A stretch of DNA of 37,539 nt from Curtobacterium sp. HSID17257. Lineage in GTDB: Bacteria > Actinomycetota > Actinomycetes > Actinomycetales > Microbacteriaceae. A program made the position numbers and the translations under genes. The notes under the pieces were generated by a model, which was given only the letters and a program-made list of their open reading frames with translations, had not been told where the DNA came from and did no database searches. The DNA is taken from contig NZ_RBLU01000024.1 in the NCBI RefSeq assembly GCF_003989515.1, forward strand, positions 1 to 37,539. Direction: 5' to 3'. This document shows, piece by piece, positions 10,115 through 35,365 of this stretch. Each line of letters begins with the position of its first letter. The first letter of the stretch is position 1.

Positions 10115-10882
10115 TCAGGACTGCGCCGGCTGCCCGTTGCTCGCGGTCGTCCCACCGTCGACCGGCAGCACCGCACCCGTGATGTAGGACGCCGCGTCGC
10201 TGGCCAGGAACAGCACCGCGGCGGCGACCTCCTCCGAACGCCCACCGCGACCGAGCGAGACGCGCTCCGCGAACTCGTGCTGGAGCTCCTCGTCCTCGGC
10301 CTGCTGCTGGGTCATGTCCGTCCAGATGAGCCCGGGCGCGACGGCGTTCACGCGGACGCCGAACTGCCCGTTGTCGAGCGCGGCGGCCTTCGTGAAGTTC
10401 GAGACCCCGCCCTTCGCGGCGTTGTACGGGCTCATCCGCCAGTCCGCGTCCATGCCCGACACGGACGACGTGTTCACGATCGACCCCGTCGTCTCCCGCA
10501 GGAACGGCAGCGCTGCCCGCGTGCCGTAGAACACGCTCGACAGGTCCGTCTCGATGACCCGGTGCCACTCGTCCGGCTCGATGTCGGTGATGTCACCCGA
10601 GGTGAACGTGCCGGCGTTGTTCACGAGCACGTCGATGCGGTCCCACCGGTCCACCGCGTCGGACACGATCGTCTCCCACGCGGCCGGGTCGGCCACGTCC
10701 GCCTGCAGCGCGACCGCACGGCCGGTCGGCAGGCTGTCGGCGACGGCACGGACCTTGTCCTCGACGCTGTCGACGAGCAGCACGTCCGCGCCCTCGTCGA
10801 CGAACGCCCGCGCGGTCGCCTCACCGATGCCGGACCCGGCTCCGGTGACGATCGCGACCTTGCCCTCGAACCGCTTGCCCAT
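10115..10882 (-). CDS. Short-chain dehydrogenase/reductase (SDR)
   Basis: 255 residues from ATG with Shine-Dalgarno AGGAG eight bases upstream. Rossmann motif 'VTGAGSGIGEATA' near residue 13, 'NNAGTF' at about residue 90, catalytic serine in 'NTSSVSG', and catalytic Y-x3-K in 'SPYNAAKGG'. The C-terminal 'SYITGAVLPVDGGTTA' is the classical SDR signature. An NAD(P)-dependent oxidoreductase acting on an unknown alcohol or ketone. It stands downstream of the GH65 gene on the same strand but is separated by 159 bases and a hairpin, so it is probably a separate transcript. Confidence 0.9.
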   Translation of the reverse strand: MGKRFEGKVAIVTGAGSGIGEATARAFVDEGADVLLVDSVEDKVRAVADSLPTGRAVALQADVADPAAWETIVSDAVDRWDRIDVLVNNAGTFTSGDITDIEPDEWHRVIETDLSSVFYGTRAALPFLRETTGSIVNTSSVSGMDADWRMSPYNAAKGGVSNFTKAAALDNGQFGVRVNAVAPGLIWTDMTQQQAEDEELQHEFAERVSLGRGGRSEEVAAAVLFLASDAASYITGAVLPVDGGTTASNGQPAQS

Positions 10883-18484: not shown

Positions 18485-19186
18485 TCACGCCCCGCTCGGG
18501 TCGAACCGGTACCCCATGCCCGACTCCGTCACGAGGAACCGGGGGTGCGACGGCTCGGGCTCGAGCTTCCGCCGCAGCTGCGCCATGTAGAGCCGCAGGT
18601 ACCCGGAGTCGTTGCCGTGCGTCGGACCCCACACCTCGGTCAGGAGCATCTCGCGGGTCATCAGTCGGCCGGGGTTGGTGACGAGGACCTCGAGCAGGCG
18701 CCACTCGGTCGGGGTGAGCCGGATCGCCGGCCCGGTCGGCGGCGTGACCTGCTTGGCGACGAGGTCCACCACGAGGTCGCCGATCGTCACCGTCGGCGTC
18801 ACGCCCGCGCTCGCCGCCGCCGTCGCCTGCCGCCGACCGAGCGCACGGAGCCGGGCGAGCAGCTCGTCCATCTGGAACGGCTTCGTCACGTAGTCGTCCG
18901 CCCCGGCGTCGAGCGCGTCGACCTTGTCCGACGAGTCGGTCCGGCCGGAGAGCACGAGCACGGGCACCTGCGACCAGGCGCGGATGCCGTCGAGCACCCC
19001 GATGCCGTCGAGCCGGGGCATGCCGAGGTCGAGCATCACGATGTCCGGGCGCTCGGTGATCACCGCGTCGATCGCGGCCCGGCCGTCCCGGGCGGTGACG
19101 ACGTCGTACCCGCGGGCGGCGAGCGTGACGGACAGCGCCCGGACGAGCTGCGCGTCGTCGTCGGCGATGAGGACCTTCGTGCTCAC
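18485..19186 (-). CDS. kdpE: KdpE potassium response regulator
   Basis: 233 residues from GTG. Receiver domain about 1-120 with acidic pocket 'IADDDAQL', phospho-acceptor D53 in 'IVMLDLGMP', and the lysine in 'VTKPFQMDELL'. Residues about 135-230 are an OmpR-type winged helix: 'IRLTPTEWRLLEVLVTNPGRLMTREMLLTEVWG' and 'NDSGYLRLYMAQLRRKLE'. The 'LTPTEW..L' and 'VWG' patterns are typical of KdpE. The start overlaps the kdpD stop by four bases (GTGA). KdpE would activate kdpFABC at low potassium or high osmolarity; candidate binding repeats lie at 27369-27397. Confidence 0.95.
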   Translation of the reverse strand: MSTKVLIADDDAQLVRALSVTLAARGYDVVTARDGRAAIDAVITERPDIVMLDLGMPRLDGIGVLDGIRAWSQVPVLVLSGRTDSSDKVDALDAGADDYVTKPFQMDELLARLRALGRRQATAAASAGVTPTVTIGDLVVDLVAKQVTPPTGPAIRLTPTEWRLLEVLVTNPGRLMTREMLLTEVWGPTHGNDSGYLRLYMAQLRRKLEPEPSHPRFLVTESGMGYRFDPSGA

Positions 19187-21675
19187 TTGACATCCACTCC
19201 CAGGTGTCCGGCGATCGGCAGCCGCACGACGACGGTGAGCCCGCCGCCCGGGGTGTCGTCGACCTCGATCGTGCCGCCCATGCCCTCGGTGAAGCCGCGC
19301 GCGAGCGCCAGTCCGAGGCCGAGACCGGTCTCGTTGTCGGTGTCGCCGAGCCGCTGGAAGGGCTGGAACACCTCGTCGCGTCGGTCCTCGGGGATGCCGG
19401 GGCCGCGGTCGGCGACGCGGAGCTCGACCCCGCCGCCGAAGGCGCTCGCCGCGATGCGGACGCGCGTGCCCTCCGGCGCGTAGCGGCTGGCGTTGGCGAG
19501 CAGGTTCACCACGACGCGCTGCAGCAGTCCGGGGTCGGCGAGGACGGGCGGCAGGTCGGCGGGCAGGTCGAGGTCGACGTCGTCCGGGCCGAGCTCGAGC
19601 TCGTCGAGTGCGGGGGCGACGACCGTCTCGAGCGCGGTGGGCAGCGGGGTGACGGCGAGGACCCCGGCCTGCACGCGGCTGACGTCGAGCAGGTCTGCCA
19701 GCAGGACCGCCAGCTGACGGAGGCTCTCGTCGGCGGTGGTGAGCAGTGCCTCCCGGTCGGACGGCGAGAGCTGGATGTCGGAGGCGTGCAGGGTCTGCAC
19801 GGCGGCGGAGGCTGCCGCGATCGGTCGGCGCACGTCGTGCCCGACGGCAGCGAGGATGGCGCTCCGGACGCGGTCGGCGGCGGCGATCCGCTCCGCGTCG
19901 ACCGCGGTGCGGGTGAGCCGCCGGTGCTCGACCGCGGCGTCGAGCTGCTGCTCGACGACGCGCAGCAGTCGGCGCTGGGTCGGGTCGTCGGGTGCGCCTG
20001 CGAACTCGAGGACGGCTCCGGACGGGAGGCTCGTGGTCGCGTCCGGCCCGTCGGCGAACGTCCCGGACGTGGCCGGGACCTCGTCGCCCTGCCGGATGCG
20101 CACGCCGGTGAAGCCGAAGGCCTCGCGGGTGCGGTCGAGCAGTGCCTGCAGGGCATCGTCACCGCGGAGCACGCTGCCCGCGATCCCGACCAGGAGCCCC
20201 GACTCGGCCGCTGCCCGACGTGCCGCACGGCTGCGACGGGCGGACCGGTCGACCACGAAGCTGACCAGCACGGCGCTGATCACGTACATGACGAGTGCCA
20301 CCAGGTGCCACGGCTGCTGGACGGTGACCATGTAGAGGGGTTGCACGAAGAAGTAGTCGAGGCTCAGCCCGGACAGCACCGCGGTGAAGACCGCCGGCCA
20401 CATGCCTCCGGTCAGCGCGACGACGAGCACGAGCAGCTGGTACGACAGCACGTCGACCGTGATCGAGTCGGGGTCGCTGCCGAGCGACAGCAGCCAGGTC
20501 AGCAGCGGTCCGAGCAGCAGCGAGACCGCGAACGCGGCGGCGATCCGCCCGCGGGACAGGCTGCCACCGAGCTTCGGCAGGGCGAACCCGCCGCCGGCGC
20601 GCTCGTGCGTGACCACGTGCACGTCGATGTCGCCCGACTCGCGGACCACCGTGTTGCCGATGCCCGGACCGGTGAGCGCTGCGGCGAGCCTGCTCCGTCG
20701 ACTGACACCGATCACGATCTGCGTGGCGTCGACCGACTTCGCGAACCGCACGAGGGTGGACGGGACGTCGTCCCCGACGACCTGGTGGTACGTCCCGCCG
20801 AGCTGCTCGAGCAGGGTGCGCTGCTTGCCGAGCGCCCCGGGGTGCCGTTCGCGCAGGCCGTCGTTCGTCGTGACGTGGACGGCTGCCAGTTCACCGCCGG
20901 CGCTGCGGGCGGCGATGCGGGCACCGCGGCGGAGCAGTGTCTCGCCCTCGGGGCCGCCGGTGAGCGCGACGAGCACGCGCTCCCGGGTCTCCCACCGGTG
21001 GTCGATGCCGTGCTCGGCGCGGTAGGCCTTGAGCGCGTCGTCGACCTCGTCGGCGAGCCAGAGCAGGGCGATCTCACGGAGTGCGGTGAGGTTGCCCAGC
21101 CGGAAGTAGTTCGAGAGTGCGGCGTCGATGCGGGCGGCCGGGTAGACCAGCCCGTCCGAGAGCCGCTCGCGCAGGGACGCCGGGGACAGGTCGACGACCT
21201 CGATCTGGTCGGCGGCGCGGACCACGGCGTCGGGGACGGTCTCGCGCTGCACGGTCCCGGTGATCTCCCGCACGACGTCACCGAGGGACTGCATGTGCTG
21301 GATGTTCACCGTCGAGATGACGCTGATGCCGGCGGCGAGGAGCACCTCGACGTCCTGCCAGCGCTTCCCGTTCGGGCTGCCCGGGGCGTTCGTGTGGGCG
21401 AGCTCGTCGACGAGGGCGACGTCGGGGGCCCGTGCCACGACCGCGTCGAGGTCCATGTCGTCGAGCGCGACGCCGCGGTGCTCGACGACCCGGCGGGGCA
21501 CGAGCTCGAGGCCGTCGACCAGGGCTGCGGTGGCGGCACGCTCGTGGGTCTCGACGACGGCGACCACGACGTCCCGGCCCTCGGCGCGGAGGCGGTGGCC
21601 CTCCTCGAGCATCGTGTAGGTCTTGCCGACACCCGGAGCGGCGCCGAGCAGCACCCGGAGTTTCCCGCGCTTCAC
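19183..21675 (-). CDS. kdpD: KdpD potassium sensor histidine kinase
   Basis: 830 residues from GTG 21673-21675, with Shine-Dalgarno AGAGGA seven bases upstream. The frame is open further upstream, but the family N-terminus is the basic stretch directly before 'LRVLLGAAPGVGKTYTMLEEG' (Walker A), which fixes this start. Order of domains: KdpD N-terminal domain (1-210), a UspA-like domain (about 235-360), four membrane helices of the DUF4118 type (about 385-490), a GAF-like region, HisKA with phospho-acceptor H613 in 'AVGHDVRRPIAA', and HATPase ('NLLANASRYAPEG', 'DRGPGIPED', 'GLGLGLALARGF'). The H-box reads HDVRRPI rather than the commoner HDLRTPL. Confidence 0.95.
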   Translation of the reverse strand: MKRGKLRVLLGAAPGVGKTYTMLEEGHRLRAEGRDVVVAVVETHERAATAALVDGLELVPRRVVEHRGVALDDMDLDAVVARAPDVALVDELAHTNAPGSPNGKRWQDVEVLLAAGISVISTVNIQHMQSLGDVVREITGTVQRETVPDAVVRAADQIEVVDLSPASLRERLSDGLVYPAARIDAALSNYFRLGNLTALREIALLWLADEVDDALKAYRAEHGIDHRWETRERVLVALTGGPEGETLLRRGARIAARSAGGELAAVHVTTNDGLRERHPGALGKQRTLLEQLGGTYHQVVGDDVPSTLVRFAKSVDATQIVIGVSRRSRLAAALTGPGIGNTVVRESGDIDVHVVTHERAGGGFALPKLGGSLSRGRIAAAFAVSLLLGPLLTWLLSLGSDPDSITVDVLSYQLLVLVVALTGGMWPAVFTAVLSGLSLDYFFVQPLYMVTVQQPWHLVALVMYVISAVLVSFVVDRSARRSRAARRAAAESGLLVGIAGSVLRGDDALQALLDRTREAFGFTGVRIRQGDEVPATSGTFADGPDATTSLPSGAVLEFAGAPDDPTQRRLLRVVEQQLDAAVEHRRLTRTAVDAERIAAADRVRSAILAAVGHDVRRPIAAASAAVQTLHASDIQLSPSDREALLTTADESLRQLAVLLADLLDVSRVQAGVLAVTPLPTALETVVAPALDELELGPDDVDLDLPADLPPVLADPGLLQRVVVNLLANASRYAPEGTRVRIAASAFGGGVELRVADRGPGIPEDRRDEVFQPFQRLGDTDNETGLGLGLALARGFTEGMGGTIEVDDTPGGGLTVVVRLPIAGHLGVDVK

Positions 21676-21699: not shown

Positions 21700-21728
21700 T
21701 TGCCCTGCCACCGATCCACTGATATTCT
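21700..21728 (+). promoter_or_regulatory. Promoter for structured RNA and Abi gene
   Basis: -35 TTGCCC (21700-21705), 17 bases, -10 TATTCT (21723-21728). The predicted start is near 21735, directly at the first strong RNA stem. The match is good by sigma-70/HrdB-type consensus. Confidence 0.5.
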
Positions 21729-21747
21729 GATGACACGCACCCACCAA
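21719..21747 (-). promoter_or_regulatory. Candidate kdpDE promoter
   Basis: On the minus strand, -35 TTGGTG (21742-21747), 17 bases, -10 TATCAG (21719-21724), giving a leader of about 37 bases before kdpD. Its -10 overlaps the -10 of the opposite promoter by two bases, so only one can be occupied at a time. Confidence 0.35.
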
Positions 21748-21905
21748 GGCTCGAGCTTCGGCTTCCTCAAACCGGGTGGGACCTCCCGCCCCGCGTCCTC
21801 CACGGACGCGGGGCGGCGTACTTCCTCGCTGACGTTCGTTCCCCACGCTGTAGTTGCTGTCGGCTCGCCCGAGATCTCACGACCAGTCGATCTCGGAGCC
21901 GCCCC
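21735..21905 (+). ncRNA. Candidate structured ncRNA upstream of the Abi gene
   Basis: Three good hairpins in about 170 bases. First, CCCACC (21740-21745) pairs with GGTGGG (21775-21780) and encloses a second stem closed by a UUCG tetraloop (GAGC-UUCG-GCUU, extended by AGG/CCU across a three-base bulge). Second, a perfect 12-bp stem (21787-21798 with 21804-21815; arm CGCCCCGCGTCC) with a five-base loop. Third, CCGAGATC (21869-21876) with GATCTCGG (21889-21896), extended by CGGC/GCCG; its right arm contains the GGAG that serves the Abi gene. A promoter precedes it. Abi_2 (abiF) genes are known to be accompanied by a structured RNA motif described as abiF RNA; whether this is a member needs a covariance search. 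It could instead be a structured 5' leader. Confidence 0.5.
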
Positions 21906-22670
21906 GTGCAGCAGACACCGGTGAGCATGTCGCGTCACCGCTCGGTGCAGTTCCGCCGAGCGCTCGTCGAGTACGACCTCGAGCCTTCCGACGATGCGGT
22001 GCTCCGCGCGCACGCCTTCGACAGCTCCGTCCGATCCGCTGCGATGGCGCTGACGGAGCAGGTCGAGATCGCGCTGCGAGGCCGGCTCGACGTCGCGGTC
22101 GAGGCACGCGTCGGTGTGCGCTGGTACCTGTCGCCGAGCACGTTCGGCGCCGACTTCGACCACGCTGCCTTCCGCGCAGTCGCCCGACGGGTCCTCGACC
22201 GATCGCTCGAGCCCGCCGTCCGGTCGGCATGGCAGGGCGGCCGCTTCGAGCGCATCCCGTTCGGCATGCTCGCTGAGGAACTCAGCTTCGGGGATCTCGT
22301 GCGCCTCGCGAGCGGTGTCGGTCCGACCCCACGCGCCGAGATCGCAGCAGGGTTCCGAGTGCCGACGTCGACGCTCCGCTCGACCCTGCTGCACGTGAAC
22401 CACGTCCGCAACTGCTGCGCCCACCACGTGCGACTGTGGGGTCGTCGACTCCGGGTGCCACCGCCGACCTTCCGGTCGCCGCTGGAGCTCCTCCGCCGGC
22501 TCGACGGGTTGCCGAAGCGCTCGCCCGCGCACTCGATCGAGTTGCTCGCGTACCTCGCCGAGACGACCGGACCCTGCGACCGTCACACCGCCGCCCTCCG
22601 CCGGCTGCTCGACGAGCACGACGACCTGGTCGACGGGCTCGGCGGGCGACCGACCTGGGCGAGGGCGTGA
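21906..22670 (+). CDS. Abi_2 (AbiD/AbiF-type) HEPN protein, short N-terminus
   Basis: 254 residues from GTG 21906, preceded by GGAG seven bases upstream; GTG 21921 and ATG 21927 are alternative starts. Family signatures in order: 'FDSSVRSAAMALTEQVEIALRGRL' (39-61), 'RWYLSPSTF' (72-80), 'PFGMLAEELSFGDLVRL' (118-134, the P-x-W-x-x-x-E-x-x-SFG block with F for W) and 'HVRNCCAHHVRLWGR' (166-180). R168-N-x3-H173 is the Rx4-6H motif of HEPN ribonucleases. Abi_2 proteins mediate abortive phage infection, probably by cutting RNA. The first about 60 family residues (RGL...YYRLSGY block) are missing or unrecognisable; no other frame upstream supplies them. It sits on the opposite strand between kdpC and kdpD, an unusual place that suggests insertion. 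Confidence 0.85.
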   Translation: MQQTPVSMSRHRSVQFRRALVEYDLEPSDDAVLRAHAFDSSVRSAAMALTEQVEIALRGRLDVAVEARVGVRWYLSPSTFGADFDHAAFRAVARRVLDRSLEPAVRSAWQGGRFERIPFGMLAEELSFGDLVRLASGVGPTPRAEIAAGFRVPTSTLRSTLLHVNHVRNCCAHHVRLWGRRLRVPPPTFRSPLELLRRLDGLPKRSPAHSIELLAYLAETTGPCDRHTAALRRLLDEHDDLVDGLGGRPTWARA

Positions 22671-22678
22671 CAGCACGG

Positions 22679-23284
22679 TCAGGCCGACTTCGCCAGGGCC
22701 AGGTTCAGCTCGAGGACGTTCACGACCGGCTCGCCGAGGAACCCGGCCTGCCGGGACTCGGTGTGCTGCTCGACGAGCTCCCGGACGGCGTCGGTCGACA
22801 GTCCGCGGGCCTCGGCCACCCGGGCCACCTGCTGCGACGCGTACTCCGGGCTGATGTCCGGGTCGAGGCCGGAGCCCGAGGCCGTGACCGCGTCGGCGGG
22901 CACCTCGGCAGCGCTGACCCCGTCGGCCTCCGCCACGGCGGCCCGGCGCTCCTCGATGCTCTTCAGCAGGTCGGGGTTGTTCGGCCCGAGGTTCGAGCCG
23001 GACGAGGCGTTCGCGTCGTAGCCGTCCTCGCCCGCGGCACTCGGACGCGACTGGAACCAGCGGTCGGCGTCCTTCCCCGAGAAGGACTGCCCGATCAGGG
23101 ACGAGCCGACGACCTTCCCGGACGAGTCGGTGACCATCGAGCCGTTCGCCTGGTCGTGGAAGGCCGCCTGGCCGACGCCCCACACCGCGAGTGGGTAGGC
23201 GACGCCGAGCACGACGGTGGCGAGCAGGGCGAGGCGCACGGCCACACCGGTGGAGCGGAAGAAGGAACGTGATGAGGAAGCCAT
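22679..23284 (-). CDS. kdpC: KdpC subunit of the K+-transporting ATPase
   Basis: 201 residues from ATG. One N-terminal membrane helix (about 14-36: 'GVAVRLALLATVVLGVAYPLAVW'), then the external domain with 'GSLIGQSFSGKDADRWFQSRPSAAG', 'SGSNLGPNNPDLL', 'VPADAVTASGSGLDPDISPEYASQQVARVA' and 'LGEPVVNVLELNLAL', all KdpC hallmarks. It helps couple KdpA and KdpB. It starts three bases after the kdpB stop. Its stop lies only eight bases from the stop of the convergent Abi gene, with no terminator between them. Confidence 0.96.
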   Translation of the reverse strand: MASSSRSFFRSTGVAVRLALLATVVLGVAYPLAVWGVGQAAFHDQANGSMVTDSSGKVVGSSLIGQSFSGKDADRWFQSRPSAAGEDGYDANASSGSNLGPNNPDLLKSIEERRAAVAEADGVSAAEVPADAVTASGSGLDPDISPEYASQQVARVAEARGLSTDAVRELVEQHTESRQAGFLGEPVVNVLELNLALAKSA

Positions 23285-31993: not shown

Positions 31994-34900
31994 ATGGTGC
32001 AGCAGGACGAGGACACCTCCGTCGAGGCGGTGTTCGACCGGTACGCCGACCGAACGGCGCTCCGACAGCGGGACGGCGACGTCGTCACCGACACGAGCTT
32101 CCGGGAGCTCCGCGACCGTGCGCGGGCCCTCGCGGCGGTGCTCGGCGAGACCGTGGCCCCGGGTGACCGGATCGCGGTGCTCGGTCCCCCGAGCGCCGAC
32201 GTCGTGACCCTCGAGCTCGCGTGCTCGGTGCTCGGCGCGGTGAGCGTGCCGCTGCAGACGAGTGCGCCCGTCGAGCAGCTCCGTGCGATCGTCGACGAGA
32301 CGACGCCGGTGTGGCTGGGCGTCACCGCCGACCAGGCAGCGACGGCCCGGGCGGTCACCGACGCGGCAGCAGCCGAGGTCCGCACCGTCCTGCTCGACAC
32401 GGCGGGTGCGGCCGGCGGCGCGACCGGTGCCGAGGGCACCGACGATGCGGCAGCGCTGCCGACGCTCGCCGACCTGGTGGCGCGGGGCCGCGACCGGCCG
32501 CAGCCGACCCCGTGGCGACCGGCACCCGACGAGGACCCCCTCGCCCTGCTGCTGTACACCTCGGGCAGCACCGGGACCCCGAAGGGCGCGATGTACACGC
32601 GGTCCATGGTCGAGCGGCTCTGGCACGCACTGCCGCCGGACCACCCGGGCGCGGTGACCGTCGGCTACGCCTACCTGCCGCTGAGCCACCTGACCGGTCG
32701 CGCCGCGCTGCTCGCCACGCTCGGTCGCGGCGGCACCGTGGCGCTCGCGACCTCGACCGACCTGTCGGCCCTGTTCGAGGACCTCCGGGTCTACGCGCCG
32801 ACCGAGCTCGTCCTCGTCCCGCGGATCGCCGAGATGGTCCGCCAGGAGGGCGCCCGCGAGGAGCAGCGACGACTCACCGCCGGCGCGACCGGAGCCGCTG
32901 GCGCGACCGACGCCGCGGCCGTGCGTGCACAGGTGCAGGACGACCTCCGGACGCGTGCCTTCGGCGGTCGCGTCCGGCAGGCCGTGTGCGCCAGCGCCCC
33001 GCTCACGCCCGAGCTCCGCACGTACCTCGAGGCGTGCCTCGGCGTCCCGCTGCACGACCTGTACGGCTCGACCGAGGCGGGCAGCATCCTGCGCGACGGC
33101 GTGGTGCAGCAGCCGCCGGTCACCGAGCACAAGCTCGTCGACGTCCCCGAGCTCGGCTACCGCACCACCGACCGACCGCACCCGCGGGGCGAGCTGCTCG
33201 TGCGGAGCACCGCGGTGATCCCCGGGTACTTCCGTCGCCCGGACGTCACCGCCGCGGTGTTCGACGAGGACGGGTTCTACCGGACCGGCGACGTGATGGC
33301 GCAGACCGGTCCGGACACGTACGAGTACCTCGACCGTCGGAACAACGTCATCAAGCTCTCGCAGGGCGAGTTCGTCGCGGTCTCCGCACTCGAGGCGACC
33401 TACGGTGGGACGCCGGAGGTCCGGCAGATCGCCCTGCACGGGGACAGCAGGCACGCGTTCCTCGTCGCGGTCGTCGTGCCCGTCGACCCGGAGGCCACGG
33501 AGGGCGACCTGCTCGCCGCCCTGCAGCGCACCGCCCGCGCGCACGGGCTCGCCCCGTACGAGGTGCCCCGAGCGATCGTCGTCGAACCGGACCCCTTCAC
33601 GGTCGACAACGGCATGCTCTCCGATGCCCGCAAGCTCCTCCGTCCCCGGGTCACCGCCCGCTACGGGGACCGGTTCGCCGCGCTCTACGACGCGGCCGCC
33701 GAGCAGCAGAGCGGCACCCTCGTCGCCACGCTGCGCGAGCACGTCGGCGACGAACCGACCGTCGACACGGTCGTCCGTGCCGCCCGTGACCTGCTGGGCG
33801 CCGAGGTCAGCACGGCAGCCGCGTCGGCCGCGCGGTTCTCGGACCTCGGCGGTGACTCACTGTCGGCCCTGACGTTCTCCGGGGTCCTCGAGGACGTCTT
33901 CGAGACCGAGGTGCCCGTCGGCGTCATCACCGACCCGACGAACGACCTCGCCGCCGTAGCCGCGTACGTCGAGCGATCGGCCACCGACGACCGCCCGACC
34001 GTCGCCCGCGTGCACGGCGCGGACCCGGCGGTGCTGCGCGCGTCGGACCTGCGGGTGGACCGCCTGCTCGGCGCGGTCCCCGAGCCGGTCGCACGCGCGC
34101 CCCGCACCACCCCGGACGGGCCCCGCACCGTCCTGCTCAGCGGCGCGAACGGCTACCTCGGCCGCTTCACCGCGATGGACTGGCTCGAACGGCTCGCACC
34201 GGTCGGCGGCACGCTGGTCTGCGTCGTGCGCGGCTCGGACGACGCCGCTGCCCGTCGTCGACTGGACGCCGCGTTCGCGGCCGATCCCGCGTTCGCCGAC
34301 CGGTTCGCCGAGCTCTCGGGGGCGCTCGAGGTGGTCGCGGGCGACGTCAGCGAGCGCCTGCTCGGCCTCGAGGAACCGCGGTGGGAGGACCTCGCCACAC
34401 GGGTGGACCTCGTCGCGCACGCCGCCGCCCTGGTGAACCACGTCCTGCCGTACTCCGCACTGTTCGGGCCCAACGTCGTCGGCACCGCCGAGGTTGTCCG
34501 ACTCGCGATCGCCGCCGGGAGCGTCCCCGTCACCTTCGTGTCGAGCGTCGCGGTCGCCGGCGGAGCCCGCCCGAGCGCGTCCGAGGACGTCGCCCCCGAC
34601 GCCCCCGCGGCACTCGACGAACGGGCCGACATCCGGTCGACGATCCCCGAGTGGACGGTCGCCGACGAGTACGCGAACGGTTACGGCGCGAGCAAGTGGG
34701 CGAGCGAGGTGCTGCTCCGCGAGGCGCACGAGCAGCACGGGGTCCCGGTCGCGGTGTTCCGCTCCGACATGGTCCTGGCGCACCCGCGCTGGCGCGGCCA
34801 GGTGAACCTGCCGGACGTGTTCACGCGCCTGGTCTGGAGCGTGCTCGCGACCGGGCTGGCACCCGGGTCCTTCGTGCAGCGGACCCCGGACGGCCGGGTG

Positions 34901-35365
34901 CAGCGGTCGCACTACGACGGCCTGCCCGCCGACTTCACGGCCGCAGCGATCGACGCCATCGGCGCGTCCGTGGTCGACGGTCACCGGACGTTCAACGTCG
35001 TCAACCCGCACGACGACGGTGTCTCGCTCGACACCTTCGTCGACTGGCTGGTCGAGGACGGGCACGCGATCGAACGCATCGAGGACCACGCCGAGTGGGT
35101 CGACCGGTTCCGGTCGGCGCTCGAGGCGCTGCCGGACGAGGACCGCGCGCGCTCCGTGCTCCCGCTGCTGCACGCCTTCGCGGTGCCGGAGGCTCCGCAC
35201 GCCGGGTCCGCGATCCCCGCCGACGCGTTCACGGCGGCCGTGCGGGCGGTGCGCCCGCTCGGGTCGCCGGACGTCCCGTCGCTCGACCACGCGCTCATCA
35301 CCAAGGTGGCGGACGACCTGACGTTCCTCGGCCTGCTCGGCCCGGTCGCGTCGCCCACGCGCTGA
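31994..35365 (+). CDS. Carboxylic acid reductase (CAR)
   Basis: 1123 residues from ATG, with Shine-Dalgarno AGGAAGGG upstream. Domains: adenylation (about 1-560: 'LLYTSGSTGTPKGAMYT', 'YGSTEAG', 'DRRNNVIKLSQGEFVAVSALE'), carrier (about 570-650; phosphopantetheine S622 in 'DLGGDSLSAL') and reductase (about 700-1120: 'VLLSGANGYLGRFTAMDWLERL' for NADPH, 'FVSSVAVAGG', 'NGYGASKWASEVLL' with the Y-x3-K). It activates a carboxylate with ATP, loads it as thioester and reduces it to an aldehyde. It is about 50 residues shorter at the N-terminus than Nocardia CAR (1174 residues). The substrate range is not predictable. A double hairpin follows the gene. Confidence 0.92.
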   Translation: MVQQDEDTSVEAVFDRYADRTALRQRDGDVVTDTSFRELRDRARALAAVLGETVAPGDRIAVLGPPSADVVTLELACSVLGAVSVPLQTSAPVEQLRAIVDETTPVWLGVTADQAATARAVTDAAAAEVRTVLLDTAGAAGGATGAEGTDDAAALPTLADLVARGRDRPQPTPWRPAPDEDPLALLLYTSGSTGTPKGAMYTRSMVERLWHALPPDHPGAVTVGYAYLPLSHLTGRAALLATLGRGGTVALATSTDLSALFEDLRVYAPTELVLVPRIAEMVRQEGAREEQRRLTAGATGAAGATDAAAVRAQVQDDLRTRAFGGRVRQAVCASAPLTPELRTYLEACLGVPLHDLYGSTEAGSILRDGVVQQPPVTEHKLVDVPELGYRTTDRPHPRGELLVRSTAVIPGYFRRPDVTAAVFDEDGFYRTGDVMAQTGPDTYEYLDRRNNVIKLSQGEFVAVSALEATYGGTPEVRQIALHGDSRHAFLVAVVVPVDPEATEGDLLAALQRTARAHGLAPYEVPRAIVVEPDPFTVDNGMLSDARKLLRPRVTARYGDRFAALYDAAAEQQSGTLVATLREHVGDEPTVDTVVRAARDLLGAEVSTAAASAARFSDLGGDSLSALTFSGVLEDVFETEVPVGVITDPTNDLAAVAAYVERSATDDRPTVARVHGADPAVLRASDLRVDRLLGAVPEPVARAPRTTPDGPRTVLLSGANGYLGRFTAMDWLERLAPVGGTLVCVVRGSDDAAARRRLDAAFAADPAFADRFAELSGALEVVAGDVSERLLGLEEPRWEDLATRVDLVAHAAALVNHVLPYSALFGPNVVGTAEVVRLAIAAGSVPVTFVSSVAVAGGARPSASEDVAPDAPAALDERADIRSTIPEWTVADEYANGYGASKWASEVLLREAHEQHGVPVAVFRSDMVLAHPRWRGQVNLPDVFTRLVWSVLATGLAPGSFVQRTPDGRVQRSHYDGLPADFTAAAIDAIGASVVDGHRTFNVVNPHDDGVSLDTFVDWLVEDGHAIERIEDHAEWVDRFRSALEALPDEDRARSVLPLLHAFAVPEAPHAGSAIPADAFTAAVRAVRPLGSPDVPSLDHALITKVADDLTFLGLLGPVASPTR

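Follow-up and report, generated by a model that had tools for sequence, protein, structure and literature searches.

AbiF proteins paired with a structured RNA work as type III-like toxin-antitoxin systems, according to the accessible parts of two papers (PMC12373285, PMC12737573). The original prediction called the pairing of an Abi effector with an RNA a recognised but poorly understood arrangement; more is known of it than that. One system so described is that of C. difficile, where, in the accessible text of PMC12373285, AbiF is toxic, its RNA neutralises it both in cis and in trans, changes at R202/H207 abolish the toxicity, and transcription starts 168 nt upstream of the gene. The same source names Bacillota and Pseudomonadota as the main carriers of AbiF, and the strings "Actinobact", "Actinomycet" and "kdp" are absent from its main text. 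AbiF toxins with their guard RNAs have also been proposed as the ancestors of Cas13 (PMC12165695 and PMC12737573, accessible parts). A search of one literature collection returned no paper joining the kdp operon with abortive infection and none joining Curtobacterium with an Abi family protein.

Here, we analyse a stretch of 37,539 nucleotides from Curtobacterium sp. HSID17257 (the window), in which an AbiF gene with a long structured leader lies between two genes of the kdp operon. We consider it likely that this locus is a chromosomal AbiF-type toxin-antitoxin or abortive-infection module, in which the RNA restrains a HEPN RNase toxin. The genes concerned are as follows:

19183-21675, minus strand: kdpD (Pfam KdpD), the divergent, head-to-head neighbour of abiF; the GTG start at about 21675 was chosen by reading the sequence
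21906-22670, plus strand: abiF/abiD (Abi_2) gene, GTG start, 254 aa, HEPN motif R168-N-x3-H173
22679-23284, minus strand: kdpC (Pfam KdpC), the convergent, tail-to-tail neighbour; 8 nt separate its stop from that of abiF

Farther along the window, a large open reading frame (31994-35365) has AMP-binding, carrier and NAD_binding_4 domains, which suggest something like a carboxylic acid reductase.

The original prediction placed an Abi_2 gene with this motif between kdpC and kdpD on the opposite strand, and its sequence and coordinates check out: the Abi_2 domain scores 69.7 bits against a cut-off of 25.6, and the HEPN residues read R168 N169 C C A H173, an intact catalytic R-(polar)-x3-H motif. 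R168, N169, A172 and H173 are invariant in 16/16 aligned AbiF proteins and in 27/27 closer ones. A Foldseek search with a structural model of the protein gave a sole significant match, PbAbiF bound to its own RNA (PDB 8vz6), which VIA-align also ranks first, so that the predicted fold is that of a solved AbiF. The N-terminus is short, as had been noticed from the sequence: the first 27 positions of the Pfam Abi_2 profile are left uncovered by the match, which starts at 28, and the model aligns to 8vz6 from residue 30 onward. By analogy with studied AbiF proteins, the product is probably an RNA-cutting defence toxin, a HEPN RNase.

Upstream of the gene, the following features were identified:

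21700-21728, plus strand: promoter, -35 TTGCCC (21700-21705), 17-nt spacer and -10 TATTCT (21723-21728), read from the sequence
21740-21781, plus strand: abiF-type RNA, with P1 (21740-21745/21775-21780), P2 (21747-21749/21765-21767) and apical P3 (21753-21756/21761-21764)
21786-21816, plus strand: second, G+C-rich hairpin, 13 bp with a 5-nt loop and a pyrimidine-rich tail, terminator-like, from the fold
21847-21876, plus strand: leader box GCTGTAGTTGCTGTCGGCTCGCCCGAGATC, 30 nt, from conservation across the leaders of the group
21869-21896, plus strand: RBS hairpin CCGAGATC/GATCTCGG, its 3′ arm overlapping the Shine-Dalgarno GGAG (21895-21898), from the fold

A leader of about 170 nt with three hairpins, one of them capped by UUCG, had been expected, and all three are present (21740-21780, 21786-21816 and 21869-21896), with UUCG at 21757-21760; in addition, conserved elements cover the leader as far as the start codon, and the leader box is one that the prediction did not name. 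The leader (21734-21920, 187 nt) folds with a z-score of -3.64, and 0/200 shuffles folded equally well. The promoter, also part of the prediction, is present, and TTGnnn-17-TATnnT is kept in 10/10 intact loci, window included, although a scan of the window for strict sigma-70 consensus does not list the TTGCCC-17-TATTCT pair. By analogy, transcription would start at about 21736. The leader was also considered as a coding region or small upstream reading frame, and this was rejected. The abiF frame is open through the leader in 9/10 intact loci (not in G037), but starts in frame upstream of the usual one are absent or inconsistent, and the leader box lies in different frames in G037 and G049.

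The first hairpin begins 11 nt after the -10 element and includes a UUCG loop on P3 and a conserved CAAA strand. A search of the window against Rfam at the gathering threshold gave no match, and a relaxed search (E up to 10, 401 bases, all 4227 families) listed the abiF family RF03085 at 21740-21781 with 20.5 bits, against a gathering cut-off of 37, and an E-value of 0.33. The same search also proposed NEAT1_3, sR32 and P4 for the leader; these score far under their cut-offs and were discarded. The architecture of RF03085 is there, namely a closing stem, a short inner stem, a single-stranded CAAA side and an AbiF gene downstream, and the match is in register over the closing stem, a bulged A, the inner stem and the CUCAAA strand. 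In contrast to RF03085, the inner stem is AGG/CCU and the loop is longer and structured, and the apical helix GAGC/GCUU, which bears the UUCG loop in the window, is absent from the consensus displayed by Rfam. Because the score is under the gathering cut-off, we do not file this RNA as RF03085 but regard it as a divergent subtype of abiF-type RNA. The 13 pairs of P1-P3, anchored by hand-written patterns, are standard in 143/143 cells over 11 sequences of the genus. There are also compensatory changes: 8 sequences have A-U and 3 have G-C as the fourth pair of P1, and two P3 pairs are swapped in G049. The abiF RNA proposed originally is thus borne out by a covariance match below the gathering threshold together with this pairing. 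RNAs of the same subtype are found upstream of the AbiF genes at L027, L121 and L129, and the Rfam lists for these three loci contain no abiF match.

The second hairpin is present in 9/11 leaders, with covarying arms. In the two leaders that lack it (G041 and G037), TTTT directly follows the abiF motif; the comparison suggests that the second hairpin took over the terminator role, and it would set the 3′ end of a small RNA. It has no proper T-run, and a strict terminator scan of the window lists none. The RBS hairpin, one arm of which is the 3′ part of the leader box, is lost from the same two leaders and has no covariation support because its arms are nearly invariant. The box itself, whose instances were found by a pattern fixing most positions, has a mean pairwise identity of 96.7% over 9/10 intact loci, G041 being left out as it lacks the box. 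The 120 nt around the HEPN codons average 75%, and since their best 31-nt stretch reaches 89%, the box stands out only moderately. Among 398 family genomes (10 of this genus), exact matches to the box occur only in G000, G020 and G034, and the two matches with 2 mismatches elsewhere are no more than a reversed control gives. Pairing of the box with other parts of the leader was sought, and single folds give unconserved pairings only.

A long leader, a second hairpin, a hairpin over the Shine-Dalgarno sequence and a conserved box resemble mRNA regulation, so that the leader might be conceived to work in cis alone, attenuating abiF mRNA and switching its ribosome-binding site, rather than as a free RNA antitoxin. 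We consider this unlikely: the abiF motif covaries and resembles the AbiF-binding RNAs of an Rfam family, the C. difficile RNA works in trans (PMC12373285, accessible text), and in one genome, G034, the RNA persists without the gene.

This RNA and the toxin gene occur together. The RNA pattern occurs in 11/66 genus genomes, one copy each; 10 copies precede AbiF, and the remaining one is at the G034 relic. Conversely, all 10 Curtobacterium loci of the window's group, window included, have an abiF-type RNA upstream of AbiF. Among these 10 intact loci, that of G010 has an AbiF frame broken in two; G010 is counted as a module carrier, with both AbiF and kdpC fragmented, and the stated completeness of its genome is 65%. 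Second copies of the RNA or the box were looked for in the window's genome, G000, which has a single match for each. In another genome, G048, the C-terminal part of AbiF is closest to that of G054 (84%; L066, L064, L055 and L074 compared) and the second hairpin of its leader resembles those of G018 and G020; these sequences hint at recombination inside the module.

G034 has no AbiF match and has kept, at the kdpC-kdpD junction, the RNA (L070:4251-4292, leader downstream), both further leader hairpins, the box and the start codon; its -10 reads TGTGTT. Retention of the RNA with loss of the toxin fits a toxin-antitoxin reading, in which the toxin would do the harm and would be the part to go; it is a single case and not proof, and a random deletion could have produced it. 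This toxin-less relic, the patchy occurrence of the module and the existence of plasmid relatives, all below 60% identity, might also be taken to mean that the locus is a decaying remnant of a mobile element without present function. An open frame, invariant catalytic residues, a covarying RNA and a promoter conserved in 10/10 loci make this highly improbable. A phage origin was considered as well; 50,697 phage records contain one weak relative.

How the module is placed was followed across the genus. KdpC is found in 64/66 genomes (no match in G017 and G022), and the loci of the 63 besides the window's were examined with it. The gap between kdpD and kdpC could be measured in 63 of these 64 genomes, G027 being left out because of a contig end. 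The uninterrupted junction that the original prediction proposed to look for in relatives is found in 53 of them, with a gap of at most 140 bases, and the other 10 have gaps of 778-919 bases. All 10 occupied junctions hold AbiF; nine of these genes belong to the group of the window, and there is a divergent one in G024 (L086, about 10136-10837, minus strand), which has an unrelated leader. There is a second site on the other side of the operon, between kdpA and, usually, a WYL regulator. It is occupied by a group-2 AbiF in 11 genomes and by a group-1 AbiF in G049, both sites being filled in G054; in G043 and G044 it shows a weak Abi_2 match of 63 bits, which lies on the strand of kdp, and other small genes occupy it in some genomes. 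In total, 21 of the 38 AbiF genes found with the window protein in 66 genus genomes (39 match rows, one gene being split) flank kdp at these two sites.

When the two main states are mapped on a quick tree of kdpBA from 63 genomes, one changes 6 times (7 if the relic is counted) and the other 9 times, and therefore the modules come and go at kdp. The family presents a different picture: AbiF (E up to 1e-8) is found in 37/219 genomes, 34 of them outside the genus, and 18 of these 34 also have kdpC. None of the 18 has AbiF within 50 kb of kdpC, with the two genes on different contigs, where closeness is possible, in 7; they share a contig in 11, the nearest pair being 52 kb apart (G147). A family-wide link to kdp was rejected on this count. 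The location had been called unusual, which is right in comparison with other genera and has to be qualified for Curtobacterium; since AbiF genes recur there, the kdp position is a genus-level habit rather than a single accident. Empty kdpC-kdpD junctions contain an inverted repeat of at least 8 bases in 45/48 cases, against 23% for sequences shuffled by single letters, and the repeats (L034-L096) differ in sequence. This count left out the occupied sites, G027, G034 and four genomes (G044, G051, G043 and G002) in which, as in the occupied G024, the script found no kdpD start; with G034 included it is 46/49. Most simply, the module has been swapped in and out at this site, probably through recombination between the conserved genes on either side.

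AbiF genes elsewhere in the genus and family have RNAs of other shapes. A hairpin, GATCRGCCCGCTCGCC..GGCTCGGGCYGAT followed by a T-run (type B), is found with a promoter-like element upstream of 11 group-2 AbiF genes at kdp, at L017 and at nine family loci, L105-L113 (in all L012-L022, L031 and L105-L113; for example, L014:1216-1248). Its pattern is present in 12/66 genus genomes and is nearly invariant there; elsewhere a G-C pair changes to A-U, and 2/9 of the L105-L113 loci vary in the middle of the hairpin. A third type (C), GACCGGTTCCGC..GTCCAGGGCCGGTC, precedes other AbiF genes at L023-L026 and L122-L124 (for example, L025:1273-1309). Rfam lists contain no match at either hairpin. More generally, a hairpin with a T-rich tail lies upstream in 45/48 AbiF loci outside the window's group, against 28% after shuffling by single letters, in a count in which some loci are near-identical and the script picked an unintended hairpin at L024 and L121. 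AbiF covariance models of Zilberzwige-Tal et al. are mentioned in PMC12804078 (accessible part), and they may already cover types B and C.

Does the position mean that AbiF is functionally tied to Kdp? Read-through from kdpFABC would run antisense to the module, and potassium stress, or potassium loss caused by phage, would shift the toxin-antitoxin balance. It is in keeping with this idea that 21/38 genus AbiF genes flank kdp, that different AbiF lineages lie at both flanks, that each of the 10 occupied junctions holds AbiF, and that in the window the abiF and kdpC stops, 8 nt apart, are too close to fit the hairpin that empty junctions usually have (the repeat in 45/48 against 23% when shuffled). 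The patchy presence with 6 (7) and 9 changes on the tree and the 18 other-genus genomes in which no such tie is seen speak against it, and no antisense would arise at the second site, where AbiF and kdpA diverge; we regard the tie as quite unlikely. Very doubtful, in our view, is a broader version, in which kdp is a dedicated docking place for several AbiF lineages and is wired to the modules, with the leader box as a control element and type B as an undescribed RNA family at the other flank. Phage entry would then cause potassium loss, potassium loss would induce kdp, and read-through antisense to the abiF RNA would free the toxin.

The preferred reading, an RNA-restrained toxin module, can be outlined as follows. 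The promoter at 21700-21728 alone would start transcription at about 21736, and the majority of transcripts would end at the second hairpin. The abiF hairpin of the resulting short RNA would bind AbiF and block the HEPN RNase site. Read-through transcripts, damped further by the RBS hairpin, would yield little toxin. As long as the RNA is in excess the RNase would stay blocked; when phage infection or another stress upsets the RNA supply and the RNA is lost, freed AbiF dimers would cut cellular RNA and growth would stop. The gene, its motif and fold, the covarying RNA structure, the conserved promoter and the patchy presence come from this analysis; start site, RNA-protein binding, toxicity, termination and defence are borrowed from studied AbiF systems and would apply by analogy. 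Several observations count against the scheme: the missed RF03085 cut-off, the single abiF motif, the lack of a proper T-run after the second hairpin, the 2/11 leaders without the second and RBS hairpins, the leader box, which lies outside its explanation, and the split AbiF frame of G010.

Taken together, the set shows, within a single bacterial family, a guard RNA whose shape changes together with the toxin, offers RNA types missed by Rfam and includes, in G034, a natural case of an RNA outliving its toxin. The repeated settling at kdp leads to a testable question: does a housekeeping stress operon serve as a switch, or does it only give a defence gene somewhere safe to settle?

Among known systems, AbiFCd-RCd22 of C. 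difficile, as described in the accessible text of PMC12373285, shares with the window one promoter, the order of RNA then toxin, a hairpin between RNA and gene, and about 170 nt from the start site (inferred in the window) to the start codon; it has two abiF motifs and lies in a prophage lysis module, whereas the window has one motif at a kdp locus. In type III toxin-antitoxin systems the RNA is encoded upstream of the toxin with a terminator in between; the window has this order and a hairpin at that place, which the strict terminator scan does not list. Tandem antitoxin repeats are absent, each of the 11 carrier genomes having one RNA pattern match, and therefore we say that the module works like type III and do not file it as classical type III. 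PADLOC AbiD (PDLC02344) matches the window AbiF at E 8.5e-23 over positions 60-222 of 277, leaving the N-terminal part unmatched. PbAbiF-AbiFr (PDB 8vz6; Zilberzwige-Tal et al., Cell 2025, as cited in the accessible parts of PMC12373285 and PMC12737573) was compared by protein alone: the window AbiF is 19% identical and about 30 residues shorter N-terminally. The kind of module is thus already known. Compared with published AbiF systems, that of the window has an extra apical helix, a separate terminator-like hairpin, a conserved leader box, an RBS hairpin and a shortened N-terminus, and it is the divergent RNA subtype, these extra leader elements, the shortened protein and the genus-specific kdp habit that look new.
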